Source of the DNA: Gemmatimonadota bacterium
GTDB lineage: Bacteria; Gemmatimonadota; Gemmatimonadetes; Gemmatimonadales; Gemmatimonadaceae
Length of the DNA stretch: 38,269 bases
Assembly (NCBI GenBank): GCA_016200495.1
Contig: JACQES010000139.1
Location: 1-38,269 of the forward strand
Reading direction: 5' to 3'
In this document: positions 2,416-16,531 of the stretch, piece by piece
Position numbering within the stretch: position 1 is the stretch's first letter
How the letters are laid out: every line of letters starts with the position of its first letter
Notes under the pieces: generated by a model
What the model saw: only the letters and a program-made list of their open reading frames with translations
Database searches by the model: none
Told to the model about the DNA's origin: nothing
Program-made: the position numbers and the translations under genes

Positions 2416-4019
2416 GGACGGTCCTCCGCCTCGAGGGAGAGGGACGCGGTGATGGTGGTGCCCGCCCCCGTGCTGCCGTGGATCGACACCGCACCCCCGA
2501 TCGCCGCCATGCGCTCCTGCATGCCGAGCAGGCCGAGCGCGAGCGGGTCGGCGAGGCGGTCCGGGCGGAAGCCGACGCCGTCGTCGCGGATCGAGAGCCG
2601 GATGCCGCCGGCGTGCGCGTGCAACCCCACGCGCACGCTTCGGGCCCCGGCGTGCCGGATGACGTTGGTGAGCGCTTCCTGCGCGACGCGGAACAGGGTG
2701 TAGGCCTCGTCGCGCGGCAGGCGCACCTCGTCGAGCGCGAGCTCGAGGGCGAGCCCGGCGCGCTGACAGGTCCGGGTCGCGGCGGCCTCGAGCGCGGCGG
2801 CGAGCCCGAACTCCTCGAGCAATGGCGGCCGGAGCTCGCCCGAGATCTCGCGCGAGGCGTTGATCGACGCGTCGACGTCGTCGCGGATCTCGAGCAGGGC
2901 GTCGCGCACGTCGGCGGCCTCGGGGCGCTCGGCGAGCCGCTGGAGCCCGATGCGCGCCATCGTGAGCGCCTGCCCGAGCCGGTCATGGATGTCGCGCGCG
3001 GCACGGGCCTGCTCCTCGGCGCGCACCTGGTCGAGGCGCCGCACGAGCTCGCGCAGCCGCTCGGTGGCGGTGGCGTTGACGCCGTCGACGATGCGCTGGG
3101 CGGTCACGTCCTCCCAGATCGCGATGAAGGCGCTCAAGGGCGGGATGCCGATGTGGTTGAAGCCCGAGGCCGAGATCTCGCGCCACTCGCCGGAGGCGGC
3201 GCGCACGCGGAACTCGGCCCGACCGCGCGCGCCGGGGGTGGCGAGGGCGCGATGGAACGAGACCTCGGCCACGCCATTGTCCAACGGGTGGACGAACTCC
3301 TTGACGTGCCGGCCCACCAGTTCCTGCGGTGCGTAGCCGAGCACCTGCTGCACCGAGGGGCTGACGTACGAGATGCGCGCGTCGGCGTCGAAGAGGAGCA
3401 GGACGTCCGACGTCTCGGCCACGAGGAAGCGGAGGCGTTCGTCGTCGAGCAGCGCGACGGGGGACGGGTTGTCGTGCGGACGGATGTCGCGGGCGCTGAT
3501 GGCGAAGCCCGACGCGGTGGGGATGACGGTCGCGTGGATGTCGGCGCGCATGACGCGCGACGGATACACGACGCGCTGGACGTGGCCCGTGGCGCGCATG
3601 CGCGCGATGGCCGCCTCGAGGAGCTCGGGCAGCGGACCGAACGGGGGGTCGCCGAGCCGCTTCCCGACGAAGTCGGCGGGCACGCCCCCCGCGTTCATCG
3701 CGGCGGCCGCGCTCACGAACGTCAGGACATCGCGATCGTCGAAGACCACGACCGGTTCCGCGATGCCATCGAGGATGGCACGCAGGTCGTCCGTACTGCC
3801 GGCCGTCAGTTCCACCGTGTGCATGTCGACTCCCGCGCCGCGATGCTGCTTCGCCACGGCGGGCGCCGCCCCCTCCGGACGGGGGAGGTCGTGCGGCGCC
3901 GGACTCCGGCGCAATTCACGCGGCGAGGTCGCACTCGCGTGCGACCGGCCCGGGGGCCGTCGCGTGGTCGCGGCGGCACTGCCGCTCGCACGCGTCACAT
4001 CCACGTGTCGTTCATCCAT
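2412..4019 (-). CDS. PAS-domain sensor histidine kinase (HisKA_3 type)
   Basis: A cytoplasmic kinase of about 535 residues with no membrane segment. A Pro/Arg-rich leader (about 1-75) is followed by two PAS domains (about 75-180 and 190-310), a HisKA_3 dimerisation domain with the phospho-His H345 in AARDIHDRLGQAL, and an HATPase_c domain with an N-box (ALTNVIRHA) and G-boxes (DDGVGF, LGLLGM). This architecture pairs with NarL-type regulators, and the regulator follows with an ATGA overlap. The start is uncertain. ATG 4121 lies upstream of a good promoter and is unlikely. ATG 4019 sits 7 bases after TAGATT and fits leaderless initiation. ATG 3824 (470 residues) has a GGGAG site and begins just before the first PAS domain. 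The ligand is unknown. Confidence 0.9.
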   Translation of the reverse strand: MDERHVDVTRASGSAAATTRRPPGRSHASATSPRELRRSPAPHDLPRPEGAAPAVAKQHRGAGVDMHTVELTAGSTDDLRAILDGIAEPVVVFDDRDVLTFVSAAAAMNAGGVPADFVGKRLGDPPFGPLPELLEAAIARMRATGHVQRVVYPSRVMRADIHATVIPTASGFAISARDIRPHDNPSPVALLDDERLRFLVAETSDVLLLFDADARISYVSPSVQQVLGYAPQELVGRHVKEFVHPLDNGVAEVSFHRALATPGARGRAEFRVRAASGEWREISASGFNHIGIPPLSAFIAIWEDVTAQRIVDGVNATATERLRELVRRLDQVRAEEQARAARDIHDRLGQALTMARIGLQRLAERPEAADVRDALLEIRDDVDASINASREISGELRPPLLEEFGLAAALEAAATRTCQRAGLALELALDEVRLPRDEAYTLFRVAQEALTNVIRHAGARSVRVGLHAHAGGIRLSIRDDGVGFRPDRLADPLALGLLGMQERMAAIGGAVSIHGSTGAGTTITASLSLEAEDRP

Positions 4020-4026
4020 CGCGATC

Positions 4027-4032
4027 AATCTA
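4027..4032 (-). promoter_or_regulatory. TAGATT -10-like box before the kinase start
   Basis: TAGATT on the minus strand ends 7 bases before ATG 4019, which would place the transcription start at or next to the start codon. It is one of several similarly placed boxes in this window. Confidence 0.4.
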
Positions 4033-4089
4033 CTCCGGGCGCCGGTCCGACACATCGCGGCGACTGGCACGTGACCGCCATCGCGTGGC

Positions 4090-4117
4090 ACAATACACCA
4101 CGCTCGGGCTGCGTCAA
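4090..4117 (-). promoter_or_regulatory. Sigma-70-like promoter upstream of the kinase gene
   Basis: On the minus strand TTGACG (4112-4117) is followed after 16 bases by TATTGT (4090-4095), a good match to the -35/-10 consensus in an AT-richer stretch. Transcription would start near 4083, giving a leader of about 60 bases to ATG 4019. ATG 4121 lies upstream of the whole promoter. Confidence 0.5.
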
Positions 4118-4214
4118 GCAATCAGGTTGACCGAATTCGACGGAAATATCGAATCGTCAGGAAACAGTCGTCTGGCGCGCCTTGAGCGCGCCCTCCCGCT
4201 CCCTCCACATCAAC

Positions 4215-4565
4215 ATGTCCCCCCTCGCGCGCACCGTGATCCTGCTCACGCTCTCGAACGTGTTCATGACGTTCGCCTGGTACGGGCACCTGCGGACGCT
4301 GAGCGCGAAGCCGTGGTGGATCGCCGCGCTCGTGAGCTGGGGGATCGCGCTCTTCGAATACCTGCTGCAGGTGCCCGCCAACCGGATCGGGCACGAGGTC
4401 ATGAGCGTCGGGCAGCTCAAGATCATCCAGGAGGTGGTGACGCTCTCGGTCTTCGTGCCGTTCGCGTGGCTCTTCCTCAAGGAGCCGCCGCGGCTCGACT
4501 ACCTCTGGGCGGCGCTCTGCCTCTGCGGCGCGGTCTACTTCGTGTTCCGGGGCAGCCCGGCCTGA
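4215..4565 (+). CDS. DMT family protein (DUF486)
   Basis: A 116-residue small multi-helix membrane protein of the DUF486 group within the drug/metabolite transporter superfamily. Hallmarks are the opening helix with SNVFMTFAWYGHL, then KPWWIAALVSWGIALFEY, LQVPANRIG, QLKIIQEVVTLSVF, and a last helix ending in VYFVF. There are four predicted membrane segments, the normal length for the family. The ATG at 4215 matches the family N terminus; an in-frame TTG at 4182 would add 11 residues but lacks support. The substrate is unknown. It lies 84 bases before the TVP38 gene and could share its transcript. Confidence 0.92.
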   Translation: MSPLARTVILLTLSNVFMTFAWYGHLRTLSAKPWWIAALVSWGIALFEYLLQVPANRIGHEVMSVGQLKIIQEVVTLSVFVPFAWLFLKEPPRLDYLWAALCLCGAVYFVFRGSPA

Positions 4566-4649
4566 ACCGCGGGGGGCGCGGCAATCCGGAACGGGGGGAA
4601 CGCGCGTAGGCACGATGTCCTACCTGCTGCTGTCCCCCATCTTCCGCCG

Positions 4650-5414
4650 ATGCCCCCCGTGCCCGCCTCCGTCCCGTCGCCCGCCACGCCACGTTCGCGC
4701 GGCCTGCCGTGGGGCCGCCTGCTCGTGCTGGCGGCGCTGCTCGTGGCCGTGGTCGTCGCGGGGCGTCGCGCCGCCGCCCTGGTGCCGGCCTTCGCCGCGT
4801 ACATCAATGGCCTGGGCACGCTCGGCGCGGTGGTGTTCGTGGTCGGCTACGCGCTCGCCTGCGTCGCCTTCATCCCCGGTTCGCTGCTGACGCTCGCCGC
4901 CGGGGCGATCTTCGGGCTGGCCAAGGGGGTCGCGCTCGTGTTCGTGGGGGCCACGCTCGGCTCGACGCTCGCCTTCCTGATCGCGCGGTACGCGGCGCGT
5001 GGCTGGATCGAGCGCAAGCTCGCGGGGAACGCGCGCTTCGCCGCCATCGATCGGGCCATCGGCGCCGACGGCCGCCGGATCGTGACGCTGCTGCGGCTGT
5101 CGCCCGCCTTCCCGTTCTCGCTCCTCAACTACGCGCTCGGGCTCACGCAGGTGCGCCTCGCCGACTACCTCGTCGCGGCGCTCGGCATGCTGCCGGGCAC
5201 GGTGCTCTACGTGTACTACGGCCGCCTGGCCGGCGACGTCGCGGCGCTCGCGAGTGGCGCGCAAGCGCCGAAGGATGCCGGCTACTACGCCGTGCTCGGG
5301 CTCGGACTCGCTGCCACGATCCTCGTCACCGCCCTCGTGACCCGCACGGCGCGTCGTGCCCTGCGGGATGCGACCGAGGGTCCCGCCGCCCTCCCGGGCT
5401 CCGCGTCCCCATGA
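4650..5414 (+). CDS. TVP38/TMEM64 family membrane protein (VTT domain)
   Basis: A 254-residue membrane protein of the TVP38/TMEM64 (SNARE-associated Golgi protein, VTT) family, relatives of DedA. After a short basic N terminus and one helix it has the family core: FIPGSLLTLAAGAIFG, then GATLGSTLAFLIARY, and RLSPAFPFSLLNYALGLT. The last two helices follow, with a C-terminal tail of about 20 residues. The end overlaps the start of the flavoprotein gene by ATGA (5411-5414), so they are co-translated. TVP38 and mercuric-reductase-like genes are often neighbours or fused in other bacteria. The transported substrate is not established. Confidence 0.93.
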   Translation: MPPVPASVPSPATPRSRGLPWGRLLVLAALLVAVVVAGRRAAALVPAFAAYINGLGTLGAVVFVVGYALACVAFIPGSLLTLAAGAIFGLAKGVALVFVGATLGSTLAFLIARYAARGWIERKLAGNARFAAIDRAIGADGRRIVTLLRLSPAFPFSLLNYALGLTQVRLADYLVAALGMLPGTVLYVYYGRLAGDVAALASGAQAPKDAGYYAVLGLGLAATILVTALVTRTARRALRDATEGPAALPGSASP

Positions 5415-6943
5415 GCCACACCGTGCCGCCGCCCGCGATCCGCCTCGAGCCCGCCGACACGCACAACGCGCGGCTCCTCGCGCAGGTGCACCCGGCGGGG
5501 TGGCAGAACCCGGTGCCCACGTCGCGTTATCACGTCGTGGTGATCGGCGCGGGCACGGCGGGGCTCGTCACCGCCAGCGCCGCGGCGGGACTGGGCGCGC
5601 GCGTCGCGCTCATCGAACGCCACCTCATGGGGGGCGACTGCCTCAACGTCGGGTGCGTGCCGAGCAAGGGGCTCATCGCGCCGGCGCGCGCGTGGGCGGC
5701 GGCGCGCACGGCGGCGCGCGACTTCCACGGACCCACGACCGCGGCCGGCGGCGACTTCGGCGCGGTGATGGAGCGGATGCGCCGGCTGCGCGCCGACATC
5801 AGCGTGGTTGACGGCGCGCCCCGCTACCAGTCGCTGGGCGTGGACGTCTTCCTCGGCGACGGGCGGTTCACGGCCCCCGACGCGATCGAGGTCGGCGGGG
5901 CGACGCTCCGCTTCCGCCGCGCGGTGATCGCCACCGGCGCGCGCGCGGCCGCGCCACCGATTCCCGGACTCGCGGGCACGCCGTATCGCACCAACGAGAC
6001 GATCTTCTCGCTGACGACGCTGCCCAGGCGGCTGCTCGTGATCGGCGGCGGCCCGATCGGCTGCGAGATGGCGCAGGCGTTCGCGCGGTTCGGGAGCGAG
6101 GTGACGCTCATCGACCGCTCGGCGCAGGTGCTCCCGCGCGAGGACGCCGACGCGGCGCAGCTGGTGCAGGACGCGATGGGGCGGAGCGGGGTGCGCTTCC
6201 GCTTCCACGCCGCCATCGCGCAGGTCGTGCACGCGGACGGCATGTTCCGCGTCACCATCGACCGCGACGGCAAGCGCGAGGTGCTCGAGGGCGACGAGCT
6301 GCTGGTCGCGATCGGGCGCGCGCCCAACGTGGACGGCCTCGGGCTCGATCATGCCGGCGTGGCGTTCGAGCCGAGCGGCGTGACGGTGGACGACCGCTAC
6401 CGCACGACCAACCCACGCGTGTACGCCATCGGCTACGTCGCCAGCCGGTTCCAGTTCACCCACGCGGCCGACTTCATGGCGCGCACGGTGGTGCAGAATG
6501 CCCTCTTCTTCGGGCGGAAGCGGGGCAGCGCGCTCGTGATCCCGTGGGCCACGTACACGAGCCCCGAGCTGGCCCACGTGGGCCACACGGAGGCCTCTGC
6601 GCGCGCGGCCGGCCTCGCGGTCACGACGATCACCGTGCCATTCCACGACGTGGACCGCGCGCGCCTCGACGGCGAGACCGAGGGGTTCGTGCGCGTGCAC
6701 CTCGCGGCCGGGAGCGATCGGATCGTCGGCGCGACGATCGTGGCCGAGCACGCCGGCGACCTGATCGCCGAGTTCACGCTGTGCATGACGAACGGCCTGG
6801 GGCTCGGCGCGATCGGCCGCACGATCCACCCGTATCCCACGCAGGGCGAGGCGCTCCGCAAGGCCGCCGACGCCTACAACCGCACCCGGCTCACCCCCGC
6901 GGCGAAGCGCTTCTTCGCCGCCTGGTTCCGCTTCTTCTCCTGA
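5411..6943 (+). CDS. Mercuric-reductase-like FAD/NAD(P) disulfide oxidoreductase
   Basis: A 510-residue class I pyridine nucleotide-disulfide oxidoreductase. An N-terminal extension (1-38) precedes the FAD Rossmann motif GAGTAGLVTA. The redox disulfide C77/C82 is in GGDCLNVGCVPSKG, the second nucleotide-binding motif is GGGPIGCEMAQAFARFG, and the dimerisation domain ends with IHPYPTQGEA, carrying the interface His. It lacks the N-terminal HMA domain and C-terminal Cys pair of true MerA, so it is probably not a mercury detoxification enzyme; a quinone or other disulfide/electron-transfer role is possible. An oddity is IGYVAS at about residues 340-345: the family normally has Asp where Tyr342 stands, and that Asp contacts the FAD ribityl chain. 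The start ATG overlaps the TVP38 stop. Confidence 0.93.
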   Translation: MSHTVPPPAIRLEPADTHNARLLAQVHPAGWQNPVPTSRYHVVVIGAGTAGLVTASAAAGLGARVALIERHLMGGDCLNVGCVPSKGLIAPARAWAAARTAARDFHGPTTAAGGDFGAVMERMRRLRADISVVDGAPRYQSLGVDVFLGDGRFTAPDAIEVGGATLRFRRAVIATGARAAAPPIPGLAGTPYRTNETIFSLTTLPRRLLVIGGGPIGCEMAQAFARFGSEVTLIDRSAQVLPREDADAAQLVQDAMGRSGVRFRFHAAIAQVVHADGMFRVTIDRDGKREVLEGDELLVAIGRAPNVDGLGLDHAGVAFEPSGVTVDDRYRTTNPRVYAIGYVASRFQFTHAADFMARTVVQNALFFGRKRGSALVIPWATYTSPELAHVGHTEASARAAGLAVTTITVPFHDVDRARLDGETEGFVRVHLAAGSDRIVGATIVAEHAGDLIAEFTLCMTNGLGLGAIGRTIHPYPTQGEALRKAADAYNRTRLTPAAKRFFAAWFRFFS

Positions 6944-6982: not shown

Positions 6983-7777
6983 ATGCCCGTCCGCACCGCC
7001 CGCCGCCTCGCGGCGCTCGCCCTCGTGATGACCACCGCGACCGTCGCGCGCGCGCAGGCGTTCGACCACGCACCGTTCGACGCGTTGCTCCGGAAGCACG
7101 TGGTGAACGGCATGGTGAACTACGACGCCTTCAAGGCCGCCCCCGAGTTCGGCGGCTACCTCAAGGCGCTCGCCGCCACCGATCCGGCGACGCTGGCGCG
7201 CGACGAGCAGCTCGCCTTCTGGATCAACGCATACAACGCGTACACGATCCAGCTGATCATCGCGCACGGCGAGACGGAAAGCATCCGCAACATCAACAAG
7301 ACGCTCTTCCTCAAGCTCAAGGGCCCGTGGGCGGAGCCGCTGGCGACGGTGGGCGGCAAGGCCTACACGCTCGACGACATCGAGCACAGGATCATCCGCC
7401 CGACGTACAAGGAGCCGCGCATCCACTTCGCGCTCGTGTGCGCCGCCATGGGGTGCCCGCCGCTCCGCTCGGAGGCGTACACGGGGGCGCGGCTCGGCGC
7501 CCAGCTCGACGACCAGGGGGCGCAGTTCATCCTCAAGTCGCCGGGCAAGAACCGCGTGGACGTCGCGAGCCGCACGCTCTACCACTCGATGATCTTCGGC
7601 TACTACAAGGAAGACTTCGGCGGGAGCGTGAAGGACGCGGCCAAGTTCATGGCCCGGTGGTACCCCGACGGCCCGGAGAAGCAGCTGCTCCTCTCGGGCG
7701 ACTTCAAGGCGGTGCAGACCGAGTACGACTGGACGCTCAACAGCCAGGCCAACGCGAAGAAGCTCGCGCAGCGCTGA
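6983..7777 (+). CDS. DUF547 domain-containing exported protein
   Basis: A 264-residue protein with a Sec signal peptide cleaved near ARAQ (about residue 25). The mature part matches DUF547: VNYDAFKA, LAFWINAYNAYTIQL, IHFALVCAAMGCPPLRSEAY, and KDFG-like and WTLN segments. The Cys in AAMGCP and the His in IHFALVC are the conserved positions that have led others to compare this fold with thiol proteases or transglutaminases; activity is unproven. It starts at ATG 6983 with GGAG 8 bases upstream. It lies 39 bases after the flavoprotein gene in the same direction, so TVP38, flavoprotein and DUF547 probably form one operon, a grouping I recall from other bacteria. Confidence 0.92.
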   Translation: MPVRTARRLAALALVMTTATVARAQAFDHAPFDALLRKHVVNGMVNYDAFKAAPEFGGYLKALAATDPATLARDEQLAFWINAYNAYTIQLIIAHGETESIRNINKTLFLKLKGPWAEPLATVGGKAYTLDDIEHRIIRPTYKEPRIHFALVCAAMGCPPLRSEAYTGARLGAQLDDQGAQFILKSPGKNRVDVASRTLYHSMIFGYYKEDFGGSVKDAAKFMARWYPDGPEKQLLLSGDFKAVQTEYDWTLNSQANAKKLAQR

Positions 7778-14120: not shown

Positions 14121-15515
14121 TCAGGCCGTTACCGCCTCCGCCGCGCGTCGCGTCGGCCGCGCGATCTGCGCGTAGTACTGCTCGCGCAGCCCGAGGGCGT
14201 TCACCTCGCACATGCTGCGGAGTTCCCCGCCCACGGGCACGCTGAACACGCAGTGCTGCACGCGCTCCTGCCCGAGCGGCGTCTCGAGCTGCGCGCGACT
14301 CATGAAGTGATGGCTCACGAACAACAGGCCGTGCGTGCGCAGGCGGCCGGTCGCGAACTCGCGCGCCGCGCGCCACGGGCGGCCCTCGCCGAGGCGCGCG
14401 AGCCAGTGCCACGCGTAGGCGCCCAGGTGGCGCGCGAAGAAGCCCGGCGCGCGCAGCGCGAGTCCGGCCGCGCGCGCGAGCGCCGTGCCGCGGGCGTCGC
14501 GCCGGAACGAGATCCCGCCGAACCGGTCGAGGAATCCGTCCACGACGCGCTCGTCGGTCGCGTCGCCCCGCTGCCGCTCGGGGTGAAACGTCGCGCCCTC
14601 GGGTCGCGCGGCCACCACGCCGTGCACGAACCGGTTGCACGCCGGGTGCCCGAGCCACTTCTGGCCGCCGAGCAGGCGCGCGACGGTGGCAGGCTCGGCG
14701 TCGCCGTAGGTGCCGCGCGCGATCTCGCGCCACAGCGCCTCGACGTCCACGCTGTCGCCCAGCCCGTCCTCGGTGCGGCCCACCTGCGCGATCGGCTGGA
14801 AGCTGATCATGAAGAAGCTGCCCGGGTGCTGCACGAGCCAGCGCACGACGTCCGCCACGCCGCCCAGGTTCTCCGGCGTGATCGTCATCGTCGTCGCGGC
14901 GCGCACGTTGATGCCCGTGGCCGCGCGCGCGCGCTCAAGCATCGCCGCGAACTCCGCGCGCAGCCCGTTCAACTCGGCCTCGGTCGTCGCGTGGCGCCAC
15001 TCGCCGACGCGGCCGCGCTGCGTCGTGTCCACGTGGATGCTGACCTCGGTGAGCCCGCCTTCCCGCACGAGTCGCTCGAGCAGCCCCGGGCGACGCCGGA
15101 ACGAGTCGCCGTGCGTCATCAGCATCGGGATCAGGTCGAGCTCGCGCGCGTAGCGCAGCAGCGCGATCACCTCCTCGACCGGACGCAGCGTGACCTCGCC
15201 GTCGGTGAGCTGCAGGTTGCCCGCGGGGCCCAGCACGGGGCGCAGCGCGCGCATCTGCGCCTTGATCGCCTCCACCGACTCGGCCGGGATCTTGTTCGCC
15301 TCCTCGCCCAGGTAGCAGCCCCGGCACGCGAAGTCGCAGCGCGGCATCGCGCCGATCGTCGCGCCGCACCCGTTCCCCTGCCGGCCGAGCATCTGGTGCG
15401 CCGTGCGCAGCGCCGGCGTGAGCTGCGCCCAGTTCTTCGCCAGGAGGGCGCGTGACTCGGCGAGCACCGGCTCGGTGAAGGCGGACCAGGCGGCGCTGAG
15501 GGACGAGCGGGGCAT
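14121..15515 (-). CDS. Radical SAM protein, MJ0619-like
   Basis: A 464-residue radical SAM enzyme. The [4Fe-4S]-binding motif C60-x3-C64-x2-C67 lies in MPRCDFACRGCYLGEEANK, preceded by the segment NGCGATIG. The SAM-site strands follow (NLQLTDGEVTLRPVEEV, LIPMLMTHGDSF, EVSIHVDTTQRGR). The pattern of Cys-rich lead, GNLQLT-GEVTL and later CNRFVHG resembles the MJ0619-type subgroup, whose members act on lipids or unknown substrates. A C-terminal section of about 150 residues carries HHFMSRAQL and a further Cys pair (HCVFSVP, SMCEVNALG) that could bind a second cluster. ATG 15515 was chosen as closest to the conserved part. The reaction cannot be assigned. Confidence 0.85.
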   Translation of the reverse strand: MPRSSLSAAWSAFTEPVLAESRALLAKNWAQLTPALRTAHQMLGRQGNGCGATIGAMPRCDFACRGCYLGEEANKIPAESVEAIKAQMRALRPVLGPAGNLQLTDGEVTLRPVEEVIALLRYARELDLIPMLMTHGDSFRRRPGLLERLVREGGLTEVSIHVDTTQRGRVGEWRHATTEAELNGLRAEFAAMLERARAATGINVRAATTMTITPENLGGVADVVRWLVQHPGSFFMISFQPIAQVGRTEDGLGDSVDVEALWREIARGTYGDAEPATVARLLGGQKWLGHPACNRFVHGVVAARPEGATFHPERQRGDATDERVVDGFLDRFGGISFRRDARGTALARAAGLALRAPGFFARHLGAYAWHWLARLGEGRPWRAAREFATGRLRTHGLLFVSHHFMSRAQLETPLGQERVQHCVFSVPVGGELRSMCEVNALGLREQYYAQIARPTRRAAEAVTA

Positions 15516-15787
15516 GGACGGTCGGGCCGAGTGGGGGGAGCGGAGGATGCTACGGCGGTACGGCACGGCGGCAAGCAGATATCGACGGTCGTCGATGTGT
15601 CCGAGCCCCCGCCGCATGCGGTGCCTCCCAGCGGTACGGCGGTGAACGCGCGACCGGATTGCTCCGGTTTCGTGGTCGAATGCACGGAGGGCCGCGCTGC
15701 CCACGCGCGGGTCGCGCATCACGCGCGACGCCGCCCGGCTCGCGGCGGGCCCATCGTCAGTCGCCCCGCCACGAGCGAGATTGCGCC

Positions 15788-16531
15788 ATGGCCTCGTGGG
15801 ACGAACTGCCGCTCCGCTACCGGCTCACCATCCGCGCGTACCCATGGCGACGGATCGCGCCGACGCCGTGGACCACGCTCCGCGTGCCGCTCCGCGAAGC
15901 GCGGGTGGCGCTGGTCACGAGCGCGGGACTCTACCGCCCCGGCGTCGATCGCGACTTCGGCACGCGCGAGGGCGAGGACATCACGATGCGCCTGCTCCCG
16001 AGCGATGCCGCGCTGGATGCGCTCGCGATCGGCCAGACGAGCGACGCCTTCGATCGCTCGCCCCTCGAGCGCGACCGCAACCTCGCGCTCCCGCTCGACC
16101 GGATGCGCGACCTCGTGGCCGACGGCACGATCGGGGCGCTGGCGCCACGCGTCGTCAGCTTCAACGGCAGCATGCTCGCCCCCGGCCGCTTCCTTCGTGA
16201 CACGTCACCCGGCGTCATCGACGCGCTGCGCGCCGACCAGGTGGACGCGGCGCTCTTCGTGCCCGTCTGACCCACCTGTACGCAGTCGGTCGGACTGCTC
16301 GCGGCGAAAGTGGAAGAGGCGGGGATCCCGACCGCGGCGATCGCGCTCGTGCGCAGCGTCGCCGAGCGCCTCGCGGCGCCGCGCATGCTCGCCGTGCCGT
16401 TCCGGTTCGGGCAGCCGCTCGGCGAGCCCGGCGACGCCACCGGCCAGCGCGCCGTGCTGCGCGCGTTGCTCGCGTTGCTGGATGATGACGGCCCGGGTCC
16501 GGTCCTGCGCGACTACCAGCCCTCGGCATAG
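15788..16531 (+). CDS. GrdB-family selenoprotein with in-frame UGA (Sec161)
   Basis: A 247-residue protein if UGA 16268-16270 is read as selenocysteine. Before it the frame reads VALVTSAGLYRPGVDRDFG, LPLDRMRDLVADGTIGALAP and DAALFVPV; after it the same frame reads PTCTQSVGLLAAKVEEAGIP, then LAVPFRFGQPLGEPG, up to TAG 16529. The pattern matches the glycine/sarcosine/betaine reductase selenoprotein B family, whose active site is U-x-x-C-T; here Sec161-P-T-C164-T. A SECIS-like hairpin lies just downstream. It is much shorter than true GrdB, and no GrdA/GrdC gene is near, so it is a short stand-alone relative of unknown substrate, presumably a redox protein. Alternatives are a pseudogene or a sequencing error, but both halves keep clean coding sequence. 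The sel machinery is not in this window. Confidence 0.85.
16276..16304 (+). promoter_or_regulatory. SECIS-like hairpin for UGA recoding
   Basis: Starting 11 bases after the UGA, GCAGUC (16282-16287) pairs perfectly with GACUGC (16293-16298) around the loop GGUCG. A 2x2 internal loop separates it from a lower 4-bp stem (16276-16279 with 16301-16304, including two G-U pairs). Bacterial SECIS elements are short hairpins inside the coding region just after UGA, with G at the start of the apical loop, bound by SelB. Position (loop 18 bases after UGA), size and loop all fit. Confidence 0.7.

Follow-up and report, generated by a model that had tools for sequence, protein, structure and literature searches.

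This locus raises the question of whether an in-frame UGA codes for selenocysteine (Sec) and, if so, to which family the encoded protein belongs. The window, i.e. the whole stretch of DNA analysed (38,269 nucleotides), is contig 290 of a metagenome-assembled genome (MAG), an assembly of 4.1 Mb in 431 contigs that is 86% complete. Gene calling with translation table 11 ends at UGA 16268-16270. An earlier note on this DNA had placed this codon within a frame that continues to a TAG, and this was borne out by homology crossing the UGA: the NCBIfam PrdB model TIGR04483 aligns with residues 24-231 of the translated frame (E 9.4e-34). The frame (15788-16528) reads M...U161...A, contains a single in-frame UGA and is closed by the stop codon TAG at 16529-16531.

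15788 to 16531, plus strand: predicted gene for a PrdB-like selenoprotein of 247 residues, closed by TAG, with Sec161 and Cys164 as a UxxC motif (U-P-T-C-T-Q-S)
16268 to 16270, plus strand: predicted selenocysteine codon, in-frame UGA at residue 161, TGA in 28 of 29 homologues and TGC in one

The open frame by itself is weak evidence for a gene at 15788-16531, because antisense open reading frames of more than 100 amino acids overlap the same GC-rich stretch. The start ATG is supported, since the N-terminal pattern M-A-x-x-x-x-L is common to close homologues. To define the residue at the UGA, we compared the homologues of the phylum. Among 395 Gemmatimonadota genomes, 33 gave a homologue match and 29 homologues covered the site. 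Here, we found TGA in 28 and a cysteine codon (TGC) in one (genome G229), where the motif is CAMC. When UGA was read as cysteine in the alignment, residue 161 and Cys164 were invariant across the 29 homologues. In the genome of the same genus (G123), frame and UGA are kept at 75% identity over 243 residues; these are also the values for the nearest named record, a Gemmatimonadetes MAG. When the two genes of this genus were compared by codon position, an excess of third-position changes was seen both before and after the UGA, although the numbers are small and not decisive. Outside the phylum, Sec occupies the same column in Acetoanaerobium PrdB, Ligilactobacillus PrdB and Peptoclostridium GrdF, and Cys is found there in Enterococcus PrdB, Paraclostridium PrdB and the alphaproteobacterial homologues of Roseomonas and Haematobacter. 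Thus, aligning homologues at residue 161, as the earlier note had proposed, gave either Sec or Cys.

These data bear on the possibility that the UGA is simply a premature stop, i.e. that we are dealing with a pseudogene, a truncated gene or a sequencing error. The end of the table-11 gene call and the fact that selB was not seen in the MAG would be compatible with such a stop, but the same UGA recurs in 28 genomes, which span several families and have diverged flanks, and the part downstream of it is conserved at the protein level and carries a covarying hairpin (see below). Because of this recurrence, and of Sec or Cys elsewhere, sequencing error, which the earlier note had named as a refuting case, and decay are excluded. 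Since both the UGA and the frame beyond it are conserved, a premature stop is already contradicted, and we give it a negligible probability.

Bacterial Sec insertion involves a hairpin downstream of the UGA, and a candidate is present in the window.

16282 to 16298, plus strand: putative bacterial SECIS-type hairpin (GCAGUC, loop GGUCG, GACUGC), loop beginning 17 nt after the UGA

Across the homologues, the stem begins some 13 nt downstream of the first UGA nucleotide and the loop is GUG or GGUCG. This GU-loop hairpin stands at a fixed distance 3' of the UGA, and it shows compensatory changes. In 25 sequences, 90% of the pair cells were paired and 20 cells carried changes on both sides. None of 500 shuffles reached either the pairing or the double-change value, and registers in which the hairpin was slid gave 16-51% pairing. 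Synonymous recoding that keeps the protein yielded 5.19 +/- 0.20 pairs, as compared with an observed mean of 7.2 of 8. The exact significance of all these statistics is optimistic, the sequences being related. In the Cys homologue of G229 the hairpin is lost: it formed 4 of 8 pairs, as many as synonymous recoding of that gene gives. For the window hairpin alone, 19% of the synonymous recodings did as well; the evidence is therefore comparative, and the significance comes from the set. In a distant subclade (loci L038, L040 and L041), the UGA is kept and a 6-7 bp stem with GU in the loop lies about 10 nt further downstream. This shifted hairpin is a SECIS candidate.

The genome itself carries parts of the Sec machinery. 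We detected a tRNA-Sec (71 bits; anticodon TCA according to ARAGORN) and, on the same contig, a selD gene with an in-frame UGA (CAGU, within ARCAGUASK), which encodes a Sec-containing selenophosphate synthetase. This selD (contig C142, locus L063) occupies positions 3861-4778 of the minus strand and beyond, reads ARCAGUASKMG around the UGA, and is separated from the tRNA-Sec by about 0.1 kb. SelA is present only as a C-terminal part at a contig end. No SelB was found in this 86% complete MAG; the best match, a 400-aa open reading frame beside EF-G and ribosomal protein genes, is EF-Tu and was rejected. SelB is present in the same-genus genome G123, and among the 33 genomes with a homologue SelA was found in 31 and SelB over cut-off in 27. 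The proposal of the earlier note that this organism inserts selenocysteine is supported by the tRNA-Sec, selD, the selA fragment and the homologues; of the sel genes to be sought in the same genome, only selB was missing from the incomplete MAG and was seen in relatives only.

A tRNA-Sec (E <= 1e-10) was found in 277 of the 395 phylum genomes, which documents wide use of Sec in the Gemmatimonadota; our literature search yielded no paper devoted to it. With Sec use this common, the machinery is required for the Sec reading of the gene but does not speak for it specifically. Scans that scored part of the candidates gave no convincing tRNA-Sec in six carriers of the gene (G123, G168, G158, G347, and G343 and G361 with 48-50 bits only), and none was found near selA or selB in five scan-negative genomes. 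In the single-contig genome G158, a UGA homologue occurs together with SelA and SelB, yet neither the Rfam scan nor the vicinity of selA and selB gave a clear tRNA-Sec. In these carriers, the negative outcome may stem from a miss of the scan or from a tRNA-Sec gene that has diverged or is missing.

If UGA were read as an ordinary sense codon throughout the genome, or by non-specific read-through, the frame would also be open, since TGA would then stand for a residue. However, of 18 genes of the window that were examined, 11 have TGA as their stop codon, the homologue without UGA at the site carries Cys there, the hairpin downstream is conserved, and the genome has a tRNA-Sec, so that the chance of such a reading is practically nil. 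Taken together, the comparative data indicate that 15788-16531 is almost certainly a selenoprotein gene with Sec at residue 161. For the explanation as a whole, a PrdB-like selenoprotein with Sec161 in a UxxC motif, we estimate a probability of about 0.9.

To which family does this protein belong? The earlier note had called it GrdB-like. The relationship to the family holds, but the best full-length match is PrdB and not GrdB. The GRDB profile PF07355 scored 25.4 bits (gathering threshold 22) over profile positions 222-344 of 347 and covered only the part before the UGA. Matches to the Grd models begin beyond position 220, and with 247 aa, as compared with about 430 aa for GrdB, the protein has no N-terminal half. 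It is not "short", as had been supposed, since about 240 aa is the normal length of PrdB-like proteins. Thus, by sequence comparison it is closer to PrdB than to full-length GrdB, with normal length and no truncation.

The near full-length PrdB match and the PF07355 score over cut-off might also be taken to mean that the protein is a true subunit, either PrdB of D-proline reductase or GrdB of glycine reductase, with a partner that was missed. The characterised D-proline reductase PrdB works with PrdA. Against this possibility, TIGR04483 gave 116.9 bits, which is below its equivalog cut-off of 300, and PF09338, the model for the pyruvoyl-type subunit (PrdA/GrdE), had no match in 32 of the 33 carrier genomes, the 86% complete own genome included. 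The protein was indeed stand-alone, as the earlier note had stated, in that no GrdE/PrdA-type partner was found in its genome. In our tree, four annotated or clostridial-type PrdB sequences form a clade of their own (support 99/100) with the window protein outside, and neither the GGGG element nor the UGTC motif of PrdB is kept. Because its genome lacks a PrdA/GrdE-type partner, its score falls below the PrdB cut-off and it stands outside the PrdB clade, the protein probably does not act as a reductase of D-proline or glycine, and a true PrdB or GrdB subunit is very improbable. The sole carrier of PF09338 is genome G146 (contig C75, 4719-6553), in which a second UGA-containing PrdB/GrdB homologue lies about 100 bp away; a genuine two-subunit reductase may thus exist in this phylum.

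For the stand-alone PrdB-like selenoprotein, the gene neighbourhood offers a candidate electron donor.

5489 to 6943, plus strand: flavin pyridine-nucleotide disulfide oxidoreductase with a CxxxxC motif (CLNVGC), matched by NCBIfam PRK06370.1-3; putative electron donor
6983 to 7777, plus strand: DUF547 protein, a recurrent companion of the disulfide reductase
4686 to 5387, plus strand: open reading frame homologous to the 238-aa open reading frame located ahead of the disulfide reductase gene of G343
14121 to 15722, minus strand: radical SAM protein with distant similarity to TrsS and Tes, transcribed divergently to the selenoprotein gene; the two genes are also neighbours in G123

In eight genomes from six genera (own genome G000, G123, G130, G367, G168, G284, G343 and G186), a gene for a flavin disulfide reductase is found close to the homologue, and in G367, G168 and G186 the two are separated by 2-20 bp. 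In the window, the reductase is located 9 kb upstream of the selenoprotein gene, and the functional link there comes from the relatives. This neighbourhood in eight genomes, within 20 bp in three, suggests that the stand-alone protein is a UxxC redox enzyme fed by the reductase. The homologue at 4686-5387 is probably a TVP38/TMEM64-type membrane protein. The radical SAM protein at 14121-15722 weakly resembles the (seleno)protein TrsS and the tetraether synthase Tes. Two neighbours, a 1147-aa outer membrane protein and a CDP-alcohol phosphotransferase, are syntenic in five related loci and were set aside, as they have no evident redox link.

In two genomes, the neighbours hint at arsenic. In G284 and G343, the homologue and a gene for a glycosyltransferase overlap. 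The glycosyltransferase of G284 exceeds the TIGR04283 cut-off, and that of G343 is 47% identical to this arsenosugar-type enzyme; in G343, ArsS adjoins as well. The protein might thus be an accessory enzyme of ArsS-type arsenosugar biosynthesis, for instance one reducing pentavalent methylated arsenic. However, a search for ArsS gave no match in the own genome; it occurs in only 6 of the 33 carriers, compared with 28 of the 362 other genomes, and was rejected as a general partner. We consider such a role unlikely, and because ArsS is absent from the own genome and from most carriers, the arsenic link is treated as a lead for a subset of genomes.

To obtain information on the active site, we inspected an AlphaFold model (pLDDT 93.6). 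The UxxC is located between strand 154-158 and helix 164-177, and U161-P-T-C164 is predicted at the helix start after the strand. No relative was found in the PDB by sequence, and a fold search gave no match at E <= 0.001; for this reason no mechanism was borrowed from a solved structure. We propose that Sec161 would attack or reduce a small substrate and that Cys164 would resolve the reaction, the two residues forming a reversible selenenylsulfide. This bond would be re-reduced by the flavin disulfide reductase encoded near many orthologues, or by thioredoxin. A redox role of the UxxC with support by the flavoenzyme has roughly even odds.

On a broader scale, the clade may be a separate family, namely a one-subunit Sec enzyme without a pyruvoyl subunit, with its own flavin disulfide reductase and, in some members, an arsenosugar-type cluster. 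We put this forward tentatively, at somewhat below even odds. In surface seawater, PrdB-like proteins are reported to rank with the most abundant selenoproteins (PMC1088965, PMC2398784). If true, a separate stand-alone family could explain why "PrdB" is so common there, where Stickland fermentation is unexpected. In this clade, almost all species retain Sec, a partner of the PrdA type is lacking and a flavin reductase gene recurs nearby, which provides concrete candidates for the search for a stand-alone function.

Compared with known systems, the window protein shares with PrdB (TIGR04483) a length of about 240 aa, a Sec near residue 150-160 in UxxC, about 30-33% identity over nearly the full length, and the exchange of Sec and Cys among relatives. 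In contrast to PrdB, it comes without PrdA or a prd operon, scores under the cut-off, belongs to a separate clade, and has UPTC instead of UGTC and no GGGG. With GrdB, GrdF and GrdH (PF07355) it shares the C-terminal domain and the Sec in UxxC, but those proteins measure about 430 aa and include an N-terminal half, which is lacking here, and the window protein has no GrdE-type partner. The alphaproteobacterial proteins annotated as "Glycine/sarcosine/betaine reductase selenoprotein B family protein" (Roseomonas, Haematobacter) resemble it in having no reductase partners annotated within 6 kb and in carrying CPxC for UPxC; they differ in that they are Cys proteins of about 300 aa in a distant clade. 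On a Roseomonas haemaphysalidis plasmid (locus L099, 5911-8296), such a Cys form lies tail to tail with SelO. PrdB-type UxxC selenoproteins are an established family. Studies of marine metagenomes report them as abundant (PMC1088965, PMC2398784), and recent reviews include them (PMC9312934, PMC13188914). The marine "PrdB" selenoproteins (Sargasso Sea, Global Ocean Sampling) belong to the same Pfam family, have UxxC with Sec in most copies and bear the PrdB name by homology; what the window gene adds to these is genomic context, the lack of a partner of the PrdA type and a hairpin that covaries within one phylum. Thus, the gene is a further member of a known selenoprotein family, its putative stand-alone role being the point of interest.
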